DNA of 64,000 nt from NCBI GenBank assembly GCA_030431255.1, contig JAUIJL010000011.1:62001-126000 (forward strand). Reading direction: 5' to 3'. Origin of the DNA: Thermoanaerobaculia bacterium (GTDB lineage Bacteria > Acidobacteriota > Thermoanaerobaculia > Multivoradales > J023). The notes under the pieces are model-generated. The model ran no database searches. It was given only the letters and a program-made list of their open reading frames with translations, and was not told the origin of the DNA. Shown one piece after another: positions 56,992 to 64,000 of the stretch (the stretch's first letter is position 1; each line of letters starts with the position of its first letter). Both the position numbers and the translations under genes were made by a program.

Positions 56992-57354
56992 ATGACTCAG
57001 GATCTACGAGAGATTCAGACTCGACGAAGGCGCGGAGAATCATTCTGGCGACGAACGTTTCTGGCCCAGAAGAACAGCGGCCTGTCGCAACTGGAGTTTT
57101 GTCGGCGTAACGATCTGGCCATCTCGACTTTTCAGTCTTGGAGACGGCGTATGCGCGGGAATTCCGACGAGCCTGAGACCACCGTCGAATTCGTCGAGAT
57201 CCCGACCATGCCCGCGCCAGGCCCAGAGCAGGCAGACGAATACGGGTTCGAGTTGATTTTTCCGAACGGCCTTCGGTTGAAGCTGCCTTCGCAGGTCGAG
57301 GGACGGGATTTGGCCGAGGTGCTGTGGGCGTTGCAGGTGGCCGGCTCATGCTGA
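56992..57354 (+). CDS. tnpA: IS66 accessory protein TnpA
   Basis: A 120-residue protein with an N-terminal helix-turn-helix ([30 protein letters not shown]), as in the TnpA of IS66 elements, which supports transposition. GGAGG lies 6 nt before the ATG. It overlaps tnpB by 7 nt. Confidence 0.95.
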
Positions 57355-57698
57355 TGCTCCCACCTTCGGTCCGAGTGTTCATCGCCACCGAGCCGGCCGA
57401 CATGCGGTGCGCCTTCGACGGCTTGACGGCCCGCGTGCAACACATTTTGGAGCGGGATCCGTTCTCCGGCCACCTGTTCGTGTTCCGCAACAAACGAGCC
57501 GACCGAGTAAAGATCTTGTTCTGGGATCGATCCGGATTCGCGCTTTGGTACAAACGTCTCGAAAAGGGAACGTTTCGATTTCCGGACGGCTCTGAAAAGG
57601 CCACGGAAGTGGAGGCGGCGGAGCTGGCGTTACTGTTGGAGGGGATCGATTTGCGGGGCGCTCGAAGACATCCGAGATGGCGCCGAAAAGTGGTCTGA
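57348..57698 (+). CDS. tnpB: IS66 accessory protein TnpB
   Basis: A 116-residue protein typical of IS66 Orf2/Tnp[51 protein letters not shown]. It is required with TnpA and TnpC for transposition. The start overlaps tnpA, consistent with coupled translation. ATG 57354 is an alternative start. Confidence 0.95.
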
Positions 57699-57747: not shown

Positions 57748-59283
57748 ATGGTCGAGCCCACTTCCATCCCCGATGACCCCGCGCTGCTCAAGCCCTTGGT
57801 GCGTGAGCTTTTCGCCGAGCTGAGAAAGTCTCAGCGACGGGAAGAATCGTTGCAGGCCAAGGTGGACGAGCTGGCCCGGAAATTGTTCGGTCGCAAGACC
57901 GAGAAGCTGGATCCGAATCAGCTCGCCTTGATCGATTTCGAAGCCTTGGGTCTCGAAGCTCCCACCCCGGCCGAGCCTGAGAAGGACGAGACCCCGGCCA
58001 AGCCGCGTCGTCGCGCCAAACGCAAACGCCCCAGCAAAGAGTTGCCTCGGCGCCGTGTGGAGCATCCTCTGCCCGACGAAGAGCGCATTTGCCCATGTTG
58101 CGACGAGGTGATGCCGGCCATTCGTGAAGAAATTCACGAGCAGATCGACTACAAACCGGCGTCGTTCGAGGTGATTGAAAACGTCACCTTCGTCTACGGC
58201 TGCCGAAAGGGTTGCGACGAGAAGATCGTCAGCTCCACCAAGCCTCCCCAGATGGTGGAAAAGGGTCTGCCCGGCCCGGGCTTCTTGGCCCATGTTGTGG
58301 TCTCCAAATATTGCGACCATATTCCGCTCCATCGCATGGAAGGCATCCTGCGGCGCCAAGGCGTCGAGATTCCTAAAACGACCCTTTGCGGATGGATCAA
58401 GGAATGCAGCGAGCGGGTCGAAGGCCTGCTCGGAGCCCTCAAAAAGGAGTTGTTTCGCTCCGCCGTCGTCGCCACCGACGACACCACCGTGCCGGTGCAG
58501 AAAAAGGGCGGCGCTTACTCCGGTCGGCTGTGGGTCTATATCGGCGATCTCGACCACCCGCTGGTGCTCTACGACTATTCGCCGACCCGAGAAGGAGAAG
58601 CGCCGAGGACTTTTCTCGAAACCTACGGCGGCTACCTCCAAGCCGACGCCTATTCCGGTTACGACCAGCTCTTCAAGCCCGATCGGACGCCCCGAATTCA
58701 AGAGGTCGGGTGCTGGATGCATGCCCGAAGATATTTCTACGAGGCCTCGCTCAAGGACAAAGGCTTGCCTTTGGAGGCCTTGGCGATGATCCGCGAGCTG
58801 TTTCGATTCGAGAAAGCGGCGACAGACTTTTCCCCCGATCAACGGCTCGCCCTGCGCCGAGAAAAGGCCGTGCCGGTGCTCGACACCATGAAGACATGGA
58901 TGGAAAAACATCGGCACACCGTGCTGCCCAAGAGCCCGTTGGGCAAGGCGTTGACGTACGTCACCAACCAATGGGACGCACTGTGCCGATACACCGAAGA
59001 CGGTCGATTGGACATCGACAACGGTCGATCGGAACGGATGCTTCGGCTGATCGCCGTGGGGCGGAAGAACTGGCTGTTCGCCGGCAACGACGCCGGGGGC
59101 CGTCGCGCGGCGGGCATGTACAGCCTGGTGGGAACCTGCCGCTACCACGGCTGGGATCCCTTTGCCTACCTGGTCTGGCTTTTCGAGCGCCTGCCCAGTC
59201 GGCCCGAAGATCGTCTGTTGGAGCTCTCGCCGCTGGCCTGGGCCGCCGAGAACGGTCTCACGTCCAATCTGATCTCGCAGTAG
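57748..59283 (+). CDS. tnpC: IS66 family transposase TnpC
   Basis: A 511-residue transposase. A coiled-coil N-terminus (AELRKSQRREESLQAKVDELARKLFGRK) precedes a zinc-finger-like CPCCDEVM, and a DDE core with Asp in VVATDDTTVPV, Asp in LQADAYSGYD and Glu in DNGRSERMLR. The C-terminus is the IS66 tail (YHGWDPFAYLVWLFERLP). It is intact and of full length. Confidence 0.97.
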   Translation: MVEPTSIPDDPALLKPLVRELFAELRKSQRREESLQAKVDELARKLFGRKTEKLDPNQLALIDFEALGLEAPTPAEPEKDETPAKPRRRAKRKRPSKELPRRRVEHPLPDEERICPCCDEVMPAIREEIHEQIDYKPASFEVIENVTFVYGCRKGCDEKIVSSTKPPQMVEKGLPGPGFLAHVVVSKYCDHIPLHRMEGILRRQGVEIPKTTLCGWIKECSERVEGLLGALKKELFRSAVVATDDTTVPVQKKGGAYSGRLWVYIGDLDHPLVLYDYSPTREGEAPRTFLETYGGYLQADAYSGYDQLFKPDRTPRIQEVGCWMHARRYFYEASLKDKGLPLEALAMIRELFRFEKAATDFSPDQRLALRREKAVPVLDTMKTWMEKHRHTVLPKSPLGKALTYVTNQWDALCRYTEDGRLDIDNGRSERMLRLIAVGRKNWLFAGNDAGGRRAAGMYSLVGTCRYHGWDPFAYLVWLFERLPSRPEDRLLELSPLAWAAENGLTSNLISQ

Positions 59284-60122: not shown

Positions 60123-61406
60123 TCAGGGAACAGTCGAGCTCCAGGCTTCGGTGCCGCCGGATTCGAAGCCGTCGCAGAAGACGACGCCCGCAGGGAATCG
60201 GCGGGCGAAGAGCTGCCAGGGCCCGGTGTGGGAGGAAAGCCAAGCCGCGACACCGTGCCCTCCGGGACCGAAGTCCAGGTCGGCGGCGTATTGGCTGCCT
60301 TGGCTGATGCTCGAAAGCACCGCTTCGGGTCCCTCGGCAGGAGCTCCGGAGTCTTCGAAGCTGCGGTACCACATGTTCAGATTCCCGGTCATCGAGTCGT
60401 CGCCTTCCCAGGTCACGGTGGCCTGCCCCAAGGAGTTGAAACCGACTCTGGCTCGGTCCTCGGAAACGACTTGGGTTGCGACCGCGATATCGCCCGTGCG
60501 GGGCGTGCCGTCCGCATCGAATATCCGAAGCCACACCTGGTCGTCCTCGGGAGCCACGGCTTCGTCGTTCCAGACCACGGCGAAGACCCCGTCCGAGCGA
60601 ACGCCGAGAAAGGGATTTTTCTGCGTGCCCGCCGTCATCTCGTTGACCGAGAATTCCCCTCCGACGGGTTGACCCGTGCTGTCGAGACGGCGGCCGAACA
60701 CGCCGTCTTCCGAGCCGTCTTGGGCGTAGCTCTCCCACACCACGACGAAATTGCCGTTGCTGTCCGAAGCGATATCGGCGTCTTCTTGGTCGCTGAGGGT
60801 GACCTCATTGATCATAAAGGGTGCGCCCACCGGCGAGCCGTTCGAGTCGAACCGCCGGCCCCAGAGGTCCTCGTCCGCGGGAGGGCCTCCATTCAGCTCC
60901 CAAACCACCAGGAAACCCCCGCCCGCCAACGGCGCGACCACGGCATCGTTGTCGTCGCCCGTGGCGCTGGTGCTGATCATGAATTCGTCCCCCACCTTCT
61001 GACCCGCGCTGTCGAGGCGCTGGCCGAAGATGTCCCGCGGCGACTCTGGAGGATCGGTGTCCCAGACCACCACGAAGGTGCCGTCCACGAGGGCAGCCAC
61101 ATCGGGATCCTCCTGGTCGAAAGTCGTACCCGTATTCACCACGATCTCGGAGCCCCCGACGTCGTCATCACTGAAAAATCGAGCCGCGATGGCCGTCCCG
61201 TCGCCGTCCGTGTTGATGGCCTCCCAAGCCACGACAAACGAGCCGTCGTCCTGGACCGCGACGGATTGGAAGAAGGGATCGCTGGTGGTGTTGACGTTGA
61301 CCTGAAAGTCGGTGCCGACGGGAGCGCCCGAGGAGGCGGCCCACTGGGGTGTCGTCAGAATCAGGAGCACGGATAGCCGAAGGGTAAGCTGTAGGCATTG
61401 AGGCAT
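60123..61406 (-). CDS. Secreted repeat protein with DGFESG-type C-terminal tail
   Basis: A 427-residue protein with a signal peptide (about 1-25, LRLSVLLILTTPQWAASS). The mature part is about six repeats of 50 residues, each with FVVVWE or VVVWD and RxFDSxGxPVG, probably a beta-propeller. It ends VFCDGFESGGTEAWSSTVP, a tail also seen in the gene at the right edge of this window. The ATG at 61406 has GGAG 6 nt upstream and is preferred over the TTG at 61418. The ligand is unknown. Confidence 0.88.
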   Translation of the reverse strand: MPQCLQLTLRLSVLLILTTPQWAASSGAPVGTDFQVNVNTTSDPFFQSVAVQDDGSFVVAWEAINTDGDGTAIAARFFSDDDVGGSEIVVNTGTTFDQEDPDVAALVDGTFVVVWDTDPPESPRDIFGQRLDSAGQKVGDEFMISTSATGDDNDAVVAPLAGGGFLVVWELNGGPPADEDLWGRRFDSNGSPVGAPFMINEVTLSDQEDADIASDSNGNFVVVWESYAQDGSEDGVFGRRLDSTGQPVGGEFSVNEMTAGTQKNPFLGVRSDGVFAVVWNDEAVAPEDDQVWLRIFDADGTPRTGDIAVATQVVSEDRARVGFNSLGQATVTWEGDDSMTGNLNMWYRSFEDSGAPAEGPEAVLSSISQGSQYAADLDFGPGGHGVAAWLSSHTGPWQLFARRFPAGVVFCDGFESGGTEAWSSTVP

Positions 61407-61457
61407 TGGGTTCTCCAAGTGACGGATGTATTGAAAAAGCGGCCGACTGAATAGCCG

Positions 61458-61690: not shown

Positions 61691-61745
61691 GGCCTGATCA
61701 GCCGGCAACCTTTTTCAACCTCGAACGGTGTGAGCCGTTGAAATC

Positions 61746-61772
61746 ATGCCGGTCGTGACTCACGACCGGCAT
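61746..61772. other. Perfect 12-bp hairpin upstream of the selenoprotein gene
   Basis: 61746-61757 pairs with 61761-61772 around ACT. A smaller hairpin, AACGG..CCGTT, lies just before at about 61726-61741. No T-run follows on either strand, so its role (terminator, operator or relic) is open. Confidence 0.6.
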
Positions 61773-61878
61773 CGTGCTTTGGACCGAGTGTTCCGGCTTC
61801 TGTTCGGCATGTGAGATCATGGCCGCGACGAAACGTACGCCCGACAACCTACCTGACAGCCACGATGGGAAGCCCACC

Positions 61879-62409
61879 ATGAGCCCAATAGCCGAGCTTG
61901 AGAATGTAACCGCCTTGGATCTCACGGGAGAGCCCGTTCGATTGGGAGATCTCTGGCAAGAAAAAACCGCGGTGCTCGTTTTCGTTCGCCACTTTGGGTG
62001 AATGTTCTGCCGCGAGCAAGTCGCGCAGTTGCGTGACATCAACCCTCAAATTGAAGCCGCGGGCGCCGAGCTGACCGTGATCGGCAACGGCAATAAAAAG
62101 CAAGCCGCCTCGTTCGCTGCGGAGCGAGACCTCAAATTTAGATTGCTCACCGACCCGGGTCTGCGCAGCTACAAGGCCGCGGACCTCAAGCGCTCGGTGA
62201 CGTCGACCTTCCGACCCAGCTTGGTGGCGAACGGCGCCCGGGCGATGAAGGCCGGATTCCGCCAGGGCATGGTCCAGGGTGACGCCTTCCAACAAGGGGG
62301 CGCGTTTGTCGTCGCCAAGGGCGGTGAGCTGCTCTTCGAGCAACGCAGCGACGTGGCCGGCGATCACGTGGAGACGGACGCGCTTCTGGCGGCTCTGGAC
62401 GTTGGATAG
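61879..62409 (+). CDS. Peroxiredoxin-like (AhpC/TSA-type, PRXL2-like) protein, predicted selenoprotein
   Basis: A 176-residue thioredoxin-fold protein. After LDLTGEPVRLGDLWQEKTAVLVFVRHFG comes TGA (61999-62001), then MFCREQVAQLRDINPQIEAAGAEL and an intact family C-terminus. PRXL2-like proteins have FGCxxCRE here, so TGA replaces the first Cys and is best read as selenocysteine, giving FG-U-MFC. A bulged stem-loop at 62007-62028, with a G-starting loop 15 nt after the TGA, fits a bacterial SECIS element. It should reduce peroxides or disulfides. The start is ATG at 61879, with ATG at 61819 as an alternative. A nonsense mutation is the other possibility. Confidence 0.82.
62002..62039 (+). promoter_or_regulatory. 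Predicted bacterial SECIS element
   Basis: CTG (62007-62009), a bulged C, then CGCGA pairs with TCGCG and CAG (62021-62028) around the loop GCAAG (62016-62020). ATGT (62002-62005) can pair with ACAT (62036-62039) as a lower stem. It starts directly after the TGA with the apical loop 15-19 nt downstream, as in known bacterial SECIS hairpins. Confidence 0.65.
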
Positions 62410-62427
62410 CGGTCAATAAAAAGCCAC

Positions 62428-62688
62428 TCAGTCCAGCTCGAAAGGCTCCCATCCCTCCGAGGTCGACAGCCGCGGAGGGATATTCTCGAACTGCCGTATG
62501 TTCAAAAGCTCGTCGATGCGGGGCAATAGATTCTCGCCGGGTTGCTCGCGGAGCTTTCGTTGCATACGAACGTCTTCTTCCGTCGTCGGAATGTCCCGTT
62601 CCGGATCAAAGAGCTCAGAGAGTTCGCTGGATCTCGTCGTATCGGTCGAGGAGGCCGTGTTTTTCGAATTGGTGGCGTATTTCGTCAT
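62428..62688 (-). CDS. Small protein overlapping the nucleotidyltransferase gene
   Basis: About 86 residues from ATG 62688, with AGGAG 6 nt upstream. It is polar and acidic (ERDIPTTEEDVRMQRKLREQPG, LLPRIDELLNIRQFENIPP). Its first 74 nt overlap the end of the nucleotidyltransferase gene in another frame. The pair has the size and coupling of a toxin-antitoxin module, but I do not recognise the family. Confidence 0.72.
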   Translation of the reverse strand: MTKYATNSKNTASSTDTTRSSELSELFDPERDIPTTEEDVRMQRKLREQPGENLLPRIDELLNIRQFENIPPRLSTSEGWEPFELD

Positions 62689-63145
62689 GGTCGACTCCTG
62701 GTAGGGAAGCGAGGTAACGGATGTCGGCAAGATCTTGGAATGTGCGGCCCGGGTCGCTTTTGATCGCGAGAACTTTCATCGCAATGAGGTGCTCCGGCTT
62801 CGGCACCATCACGGGAATACCACGTGGCCCTGTTCGTATTTCGGCCTTATCGAAGATCTGATCGCGGGTTGAACCTCGAACGTAGAGAAAATCGATCCGT
62901 CCACGGATAGGATTCTGGTGTAGGTGATTGGAATAGGCCGCCGAGCAGTGAAGGGTCTCGAATCCCAGCTCTTCCAAAAAGCTCACAATATCTTCTTGGG
63001 CGTTGATATCGACGACTAAGTCCAGGTCCAAAGTCGTGCGTGCGAAGCCGTACGCGGCCAAGGCCACGCCCCCAATCAACGCCCAGGAGTGCTGCCGGGC
63101 ATCAAGGAAGTCTTTGAGATCTTGTAGGTTGCGGCCGAAGTCCAT
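62615..63145 (-). CDS. Nucleotidyltransferase (AbiEii/MNT-like)
   Basis: A 176-residue protein. LIGGVALAAYGFARTTLDLDLVVD gives the GG and DxD of a minimal nucleotidyltransferase. PKPEHLIAMKVLAIKSDPGRTFQDLADI is the usual C-terminal part of AbiEii/DUF6036-like toxins. Such enzymes modify tRNA or proteins as toxins or serve in phage defence. It overlaps the small gene downstream by 74 nt. Confidence 0.88.
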   Translation of the reverse strand: MDFGRNLQDLKDFLDARQHSWALIGGVALAAYGFARTTLDLDLVVDINAQEDIVSFLEELGFETLHCSAAYSNHLHQNPIRGRIDFLYVRGSTRDQIFDKAEIRTGPRGIPVMVPKPEHLIAMKVLAIKSDPGRTFQDLADIRYLASLPGVDHDEIRHQFEKHGLLDRYDEIQRTL

Positions 63146-63557: not shown

Positions 63558-64000
63558 TCAGGGGGTCGTCGACGACCACCGCGAGGTGTCGCCCGTCTCG
63601 AAGCCGTCCTCGAAGATGAGGTCGGTCAACACTAGGTCGTCCACCAGGATGGTGATCTCAGCGGCGGAATTGGCCAAGCTGAGATCCAGGCTGCACAGAG
63701 CCGAGACCGTGCCGGCCGGCGCCTCGAAGGTCCAGGTCGGCAAGGGCTGCCAGCCGCCGTTGACCGCGGTGAACACCTCGTCGTTGGTTTCCGTCATGGT
63801 CGCAGCGCCGGTGCAGTCCGCCTGGGCGTAGAGCTCACACGTCCGGCCGACGGTGACGTCGGTTTCCAGATCCCGAATCCACACCTCGGCCCCGAGCTCG
63901 TAGCCGCCCACGCGGTCCATGGCCACGCATTGGCCGAGGGAGTAGTCCGTGTTGGCCAGGTCGTTGTTGTAGAAGACCGCCGCGCCGGAGACCCGGGCGC
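63558..64000 (-). CDS. Secreted protein with DGFETG-type C-terminal tail, 5' end outside the window
   Basis: The last 146 codons of a minus-strand gene that is open to the right edge (ARVSGAAVFYNNDLANTDYSLG at the border). The visible part is one or more beta-rich domains with cysteines (GQCVAMDRVGGYELG, CELYAQADCTGAA). It ends LIFEDGFETGDTSRWSSTTP, matching the tail of the gene at 60123-61406. Function not assigned; likely extracellular. Confidence 0.8.
   Translation of the reverse strand, partial: ARVSGAAVFYNNDLANTDYSLGQCVAMDRVGGYELGAEVWIRDLETDVTVGRTCELYAQADCTGAATMTETNDEVFTAVNGGWQPLPTWTFEAPAGTVSALCSLDLSLANSAAEITILVDDLVLTDLIFEDGFETGDTSRWSSTTP

Follow-up and report, generated by a model that had tools for sequence, protein, structure and literature searches.

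The window, the whole 64,000-nucleotide stretch of Thermoanaerobaculia DNA analysed here, contains a gene for a 176-residue redox protein which very probably is a selenoprotein, with an in-frame TGA codon read as selenocysteine (Sec), a reading to which we assign a probability of about 0.96. The frame extends from the ATG at 61879 to the TAG ending at 62409 and is interrupted solely by the TGA at 61999-62001, which occupies the first position of a CxxC motif (RHFG-U-MFC). The glycine before this codon and the MFCRE after it are as the initial annotation described, and the similarity to known proteins crosses the TGA. With the TGA read as a residue, the product matches the Pfam families AhpC-TSA_2 (7e-17), AhpC-TSA (1.9e-12) and Redoxin. 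The NCBIfam model NF040769, "SelL-related redox protein" (cut-off: 120 bits), is matched over residues 8-172 at 127.9 bits when Cys replaces Sec, and the gene scored 118.8 bits against this model when the genome was searched in six frames. Every one of the 40 aligned proteins also matches NF040769, and the only invariant columns of that alignment, reading the TGA as C, are R37, H38, U/C41, C44 and G141. A further in-frame ATG upstream, at 61819, would add 20 residues if used; similarity to the homologues begins near 61879. A promoter scan found nothing, and no operon partner is evident among the neighbouring genes. Feature coordinates are collected in Table 1.

Table 1. The probable selenoprotein gene, its motif codons, the two competing hairpins and the selD gene of the source genome
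Feature	Position	Strand	Evidence
Probable selenoprotein gene, 176-aa SelL-related / AhpC-TSA_2 (PRXL2-like) redox protein, Sec = residue 41	61879..62409	+	Profile matches, alignment, predicted fold
In-frame TGA, proposed selenocysteine codon, U41 of RHFG-U-x-F-C	61999..62001	+	TGA or Cys codon in 53/53 aligned genes
TGC, Cys44, second residue of UxxC, probable resolving cysteine	62008..62010	+	Kept as Cys, or as second TGA in L075-L077
Probable SECIS hairpin, 7-bp stem GUCGCGC/GCGUGAC, apical loop AGUU 62027-62030	62020..62037	+	Covariation, energy
Stem proposed earlier, TGC-C-GCGA / GCAAG / TCGCGCA; competes with 62020-62037, probably not functional, at most a minor fold	62008..62027	+	No covariation beyond shuffles
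selD, itself a selenoprotein gene	L021 1399-2802 (G000:C48:70921-71844)	-	TGA at classical site, strong hairpin

Homologues were taken from the order, from GTDB genomes and from the phylum, and were read with TGA open. The codon aligned to 61999 is TGA in 33 of 53 genes (the gene itself included), TGC or TGT in 20 and any other codon in none, which argues against a chance occurrence of the TGA; this count leaves out a more distant paralogue in the source genome (L024), which also carries TGA. The alignment across the TGA, put forward in the initial annotation as a check on selenocysteine, thus displays Cys/Sec exchange with no third residue. A TGA is a single base away from TGC and TGT, and a mutated or misread cysteine codon would leave a dead or truncated gene or a sequencing error. 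This explanation is contradicted by the conservation of the codon, with the same TGA found in 32 other genes of separate genomes, as well as by the intact frame on both sides and the conserved downstream motif residues, and its likelihood is negligible. A reading of the TGA as tryptophan, or by unspecific suppression, is just as implausible: no support for it was found, the aligned residue in the non-TGA relatives is always Cys and never Trp, and the genome carries a dedicated tRNA-Sec with the anticodon TCA. Two separate products, namely a 40-aa peptide ending at the TGA and a 135-aa protein restarted at the ATG at 62002, are suggested by the position of this ATG immediately 3' of the TGA, from which a table-11 gene finder would call the 135-aa ORF. 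The ATG is, however, not conserved, being replaced by ATC, ATT, CTG, CCG or GTC in relatives, and the protein made from it would lose the first beta strands and the motif residue, rendering this alternative very improbable.

The initial annotation inferred that the Sec machinery must be encoded outside the window. All of its components are present elsewhere in the source genome (10.19 Mb; 54 contigs; 98.8% complete), namely SelA (1.4e-113), SelB (358.7 bits; cut-off: 242), SelD (359.6 bits) and a tRNA-Sec (72.7 bits) with the anticodon TCA, on which Infernal and ARAGORN agree. The absence of selA, selB or selC had been named as grounds for rejecting selenocysteine; with SelA, SelB and tRNA-Sec in the genome, the reading is not refuted in this way. 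The selD gene likewise carries an in-frame TGA that must be decoded, situated at the classical site (KTCG-U-AAKL) with a strong hairpin 3' of it. Two additional AhpC/TSA-like genes with an in-frame TGA were observed in the source genome, L024 (1315-2259, reverse strand; G000:C35 near 467030) and L025 (1330-2115, reverse strand; G000:C45 near 460926). Their motifs are RGTW-U-PFC and RGYW-U-PFC, respectively, and they are probably two more selenoproteins. The lineage of the source genome uses selenium widely.

Among the TGA-containing genomes from outside the order, 15/15 have both SelA and tRNA-Sec above the cut-off. Co-occurrence of TGA and SelA within the order is uninformative, as 65 of the 71 genomes there have SelA above the cut-off. 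No SelA match was obtained in two of the TGA genomes: G023 (82% complete), which also has no tRNA-Sec above the cut-off, and G032 (69% complete), in which tRNA-Sec is present; genome incompleteness is the presumed cause. Of the Cys homologues sampled from the phylum, the nearest is L059 (47% identity); its genome, G424, matches SelA only partially, at 24 bits, and yields no tRNA-Sec above the cut-off. Cys homologues also occur in G165, G190 and G228, yet these genomes carry the Sec machinery, indicating that the family does not strictly require Sec. A second TGA occupies the other motif position in L075, L076 and L077, giving UxxU (ULPU/ULLU), and these genes, from bacteria of the same phylum, appear to encode SelL-type double-Sec forms. 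The sole other member of the genus in the sample, G006, has SelA and no match to the gene, which makes the distribution of the gene patchy. The plasmid records searched contained weak partial relatives only.

The bacterial SECIS model calls for a G near the start of the apical loop, at a distance of some 16-37 nt from the UGA. Directly 3' of the UGA, where bacterial selenoprotein genes have their stem-loop, a hairpin is found at 62020-62037 (arms: 62020-62026 and 62031-62037) with a G in its apical loop and a distance of 25 nt from UGA to loop. This hairpin is most likely the SECIS element. It is situated 12 nt downstream of the stem with a GCAAG loop proposed in the initial annotation, in which 62008-62015 pair with 62021-62027, and the two compete because the sequence TCGCGCA is common to both. 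The upstream stem is a possible fold and has all seven of its pairs in roughly half of the TGA genes, yet the sequence of the gene favours the downstream hairpin (pair probability: 0.85 versus about 0.15; energy: -11.7 versus -8.2 kcal/mol).

Covariation likewise distinguishes the two. Across 27 TGA genes in an ungapped alignment, the 62020-62037 hairpin has four pairs, or 12 cells, changed on both sides, and its covariation score of 0.328 was reached by none of 500 shuffles, which make no correction for relatedness, and by no slid version. In the same alignment 94.7% of its cells are paired, a percentage biased upward by the removal after inspection of six genes (L043, L060, L065, L068, L070 and L071) that do not keep the 7-bp register; these genes point to a displaced SECIS element in some family members. 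When all 33 TGA genes are included (21 distinct arm pairs), the matching of the arms exceeds that in all 5000 shuffles, again uncorrected for relatedness (p 0.0002). EAVQVH or QAVQVH replaces HVAQLR in L061 and L069, and the hairpin GCGGUGC-AGGU-GCAUCGC still forms there, the stem sequence changing along with the protein sequence. The covariation of the upstream stem is, by contrast, at the level of the shuffles, and this stem is unstable in L061, L069 and L075-L078, in which the downstream hairpin persists. Neither stem covaries significantly when the 16 close sequences of the order are taken by themselves, and the signal for 62020-62037 emerged only after genomes from the wider phylum were added. 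That Sec is inserted by means of the GCAAG stem, an alternative that concerns the placement of the SECIS element and not Sec itself, is hence unlikely.

Folding was also compared against synonymous recodings based on the codon usage of the window alone. The gene by itself gave a marginal result (z -2.0; p 0.047). Taken together, the TGA genes were more stable than their recodings (mean z -1.61; n=31), unlike the Cys genes (mean z -0.26; n=20; Mann-Whitney p 1.1e-4). An Rfam scan of 61700-62500 at a permissive threshold returned chance matches only, and as such no Rfam SECIS family applies. The proposal of the initial annotation that the TGA encodes selenocysteine is thus upheld by the Sec machinery, the Sec/Cys exchange and a covarying hairpin just 3' of the codon in TGA genes, albeit with the SECIS element placed at 62020-62037.

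The AlphaFold2 model of the product, with 39 homologues as the alignment (pLDDT: 96.3; pTM: 0.92), has a predicted thioredoxin-like fold, in which a strand (residues 30-35) is followed by a helix (residues 42-60) directly after U41. The redox pair is therefore predicted where a central beta strand gives way to the next helix, as in thioredoxin-fold peroxiredoxin-like (PRXL2 / AhpC-TSA_2) proteins. The best-matching PDB fold is that of human prostamide/PGF synthase (9usa; TM 0.82); PrxQ/Bcp peroxiredoxins (PrxQ; TM 0.69) and ResA come next. Residues U41 and C44 align with the two cysteines mutated in 9usa (C44S/C47S), and the placement of UxxC where PRXL2-like proteins have CxxC, as initially annotated, agrees with the alignment of U41 to the first Cys of the human enzyme.

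If decoding follows the usual bacterial pathway, Sec-tRNA(Sec) would be made by SelA and SelD and delivered by SelB, which would bind the mRNA hairpin just 3' of the UGA, most likely that at 62020-62037, with the ribosome reading the UGA as selenocysteine. The product would be a peroxiredoxin-like redox enzyme of the thioredoxin fold with a UxxC active site. The selenolate of U41 may attack the substrate, potentially a peroxide or a disulfide, after which Cys44 would resolve the intermediate, forming a selenenylsulfide that a thioredoxin-type donor would in turn reduce.

The gene is flanked by an AbiEii-like nucleotidyltransferase gene on the opposite strand, while an IS66 element lies further upstream. 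The former region (62428-62730 and 62615-63145, reverse strand) encodes the nucleotidyltransferase (PF08843) together with a small ORF that overlaps it; the two may form a toxin-antitoxin pair. The IS66-type insertion element (57324-57698 and 57748-59283, forward strand) comprises a transposase (PF03050) and a probable small accessory ORF. Two further predicted proteins, encoded on the reverse strand at 60123-61418 and 63558-63926, end in similar C-terminal motifs, FCDGFESGGTEAWSSTVP and FEDGFETGDTSRWSSTTP, which perhaps represent a shared sorting or attachment signal; the 60123-61418 product has no Pfam match.

Standard annotation would split or truncate the gene, giving the 135-aa ORF from 62002, while the correct reading adds a well-supported predicted Sec enzyme with a testable candidate SECIS element. 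The relatives include UxxC, UxxU and CxxC versions of the same protein, and are as such useful for understanding why Sec is kept or lost. Knowledge of Sec decoding is unchanged by this gene.

Several known families resemble the product. SelL, as cited from Shchedrina et al. 2007 in PMC3473315 and PMC2398784, is a diselenide selenoprotein with a UxxU motif. The product shares with SelL, as there described, the peroxiredoxin-like character and two redox residues two apart, and UxxU occurs in its relatives L075-L077; however, its own motif is UxxC with a single Sec, in place of the two-Sec UxxU that these citing papers give for SelL proper. Selenoprotein U, or PRXL2, includes SelU3, the prostamide/prostaglandin F synthase (PMC3473315). 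SelU3 (PDB 9us9 and 9usa) has an aligned CxxC and a Prx-like2 thioredoxin-like domain and provides the best PDB fold match, but is about 25% identical to the product, and the human protein has Cys; prostaglandin chemistry is unsupported for the product. Bacterial peroxiredoxin-like thiol:disulfide oxidoreductase selenoproteins (UxxC/UxxU) and an AhpC/TSA family selenoprotein (PF13911/cd02970, AhpC-TSA_2; UxxS) have been tabulated (PMC9312934, PMC13188914). Both belong to the same superfamily as the product and have Sec at the same motif position, the PF13911/cd02970 entry differing in its UxxS from the UxxC observed here.

The closest correspondence is with NF040769, which the product matches over its whole length, with Sec at the first motif position in the product. 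No paper naming NF040769 was found in the literature searched, and the 2026 review and table of bacterial selenoproteins (PMC13188914) do not mention it; the existence of a model and a name indicates that the family is known to curators. We tentatively suggest, at somewhat less than even odds, that these proteins constitute a SelL-related subfamily, not separately named in the published bacterial selenoprotein lists consulted, in which the Sec form (UxxC or, in certain genera, UxxU) predominates within one phylum and has been long kept, with a recurrent 7-bp SECIS element bearing an AGUU or AGGU loop. The gene described here is a new addition to an already known family of bacterial selenoproteins.
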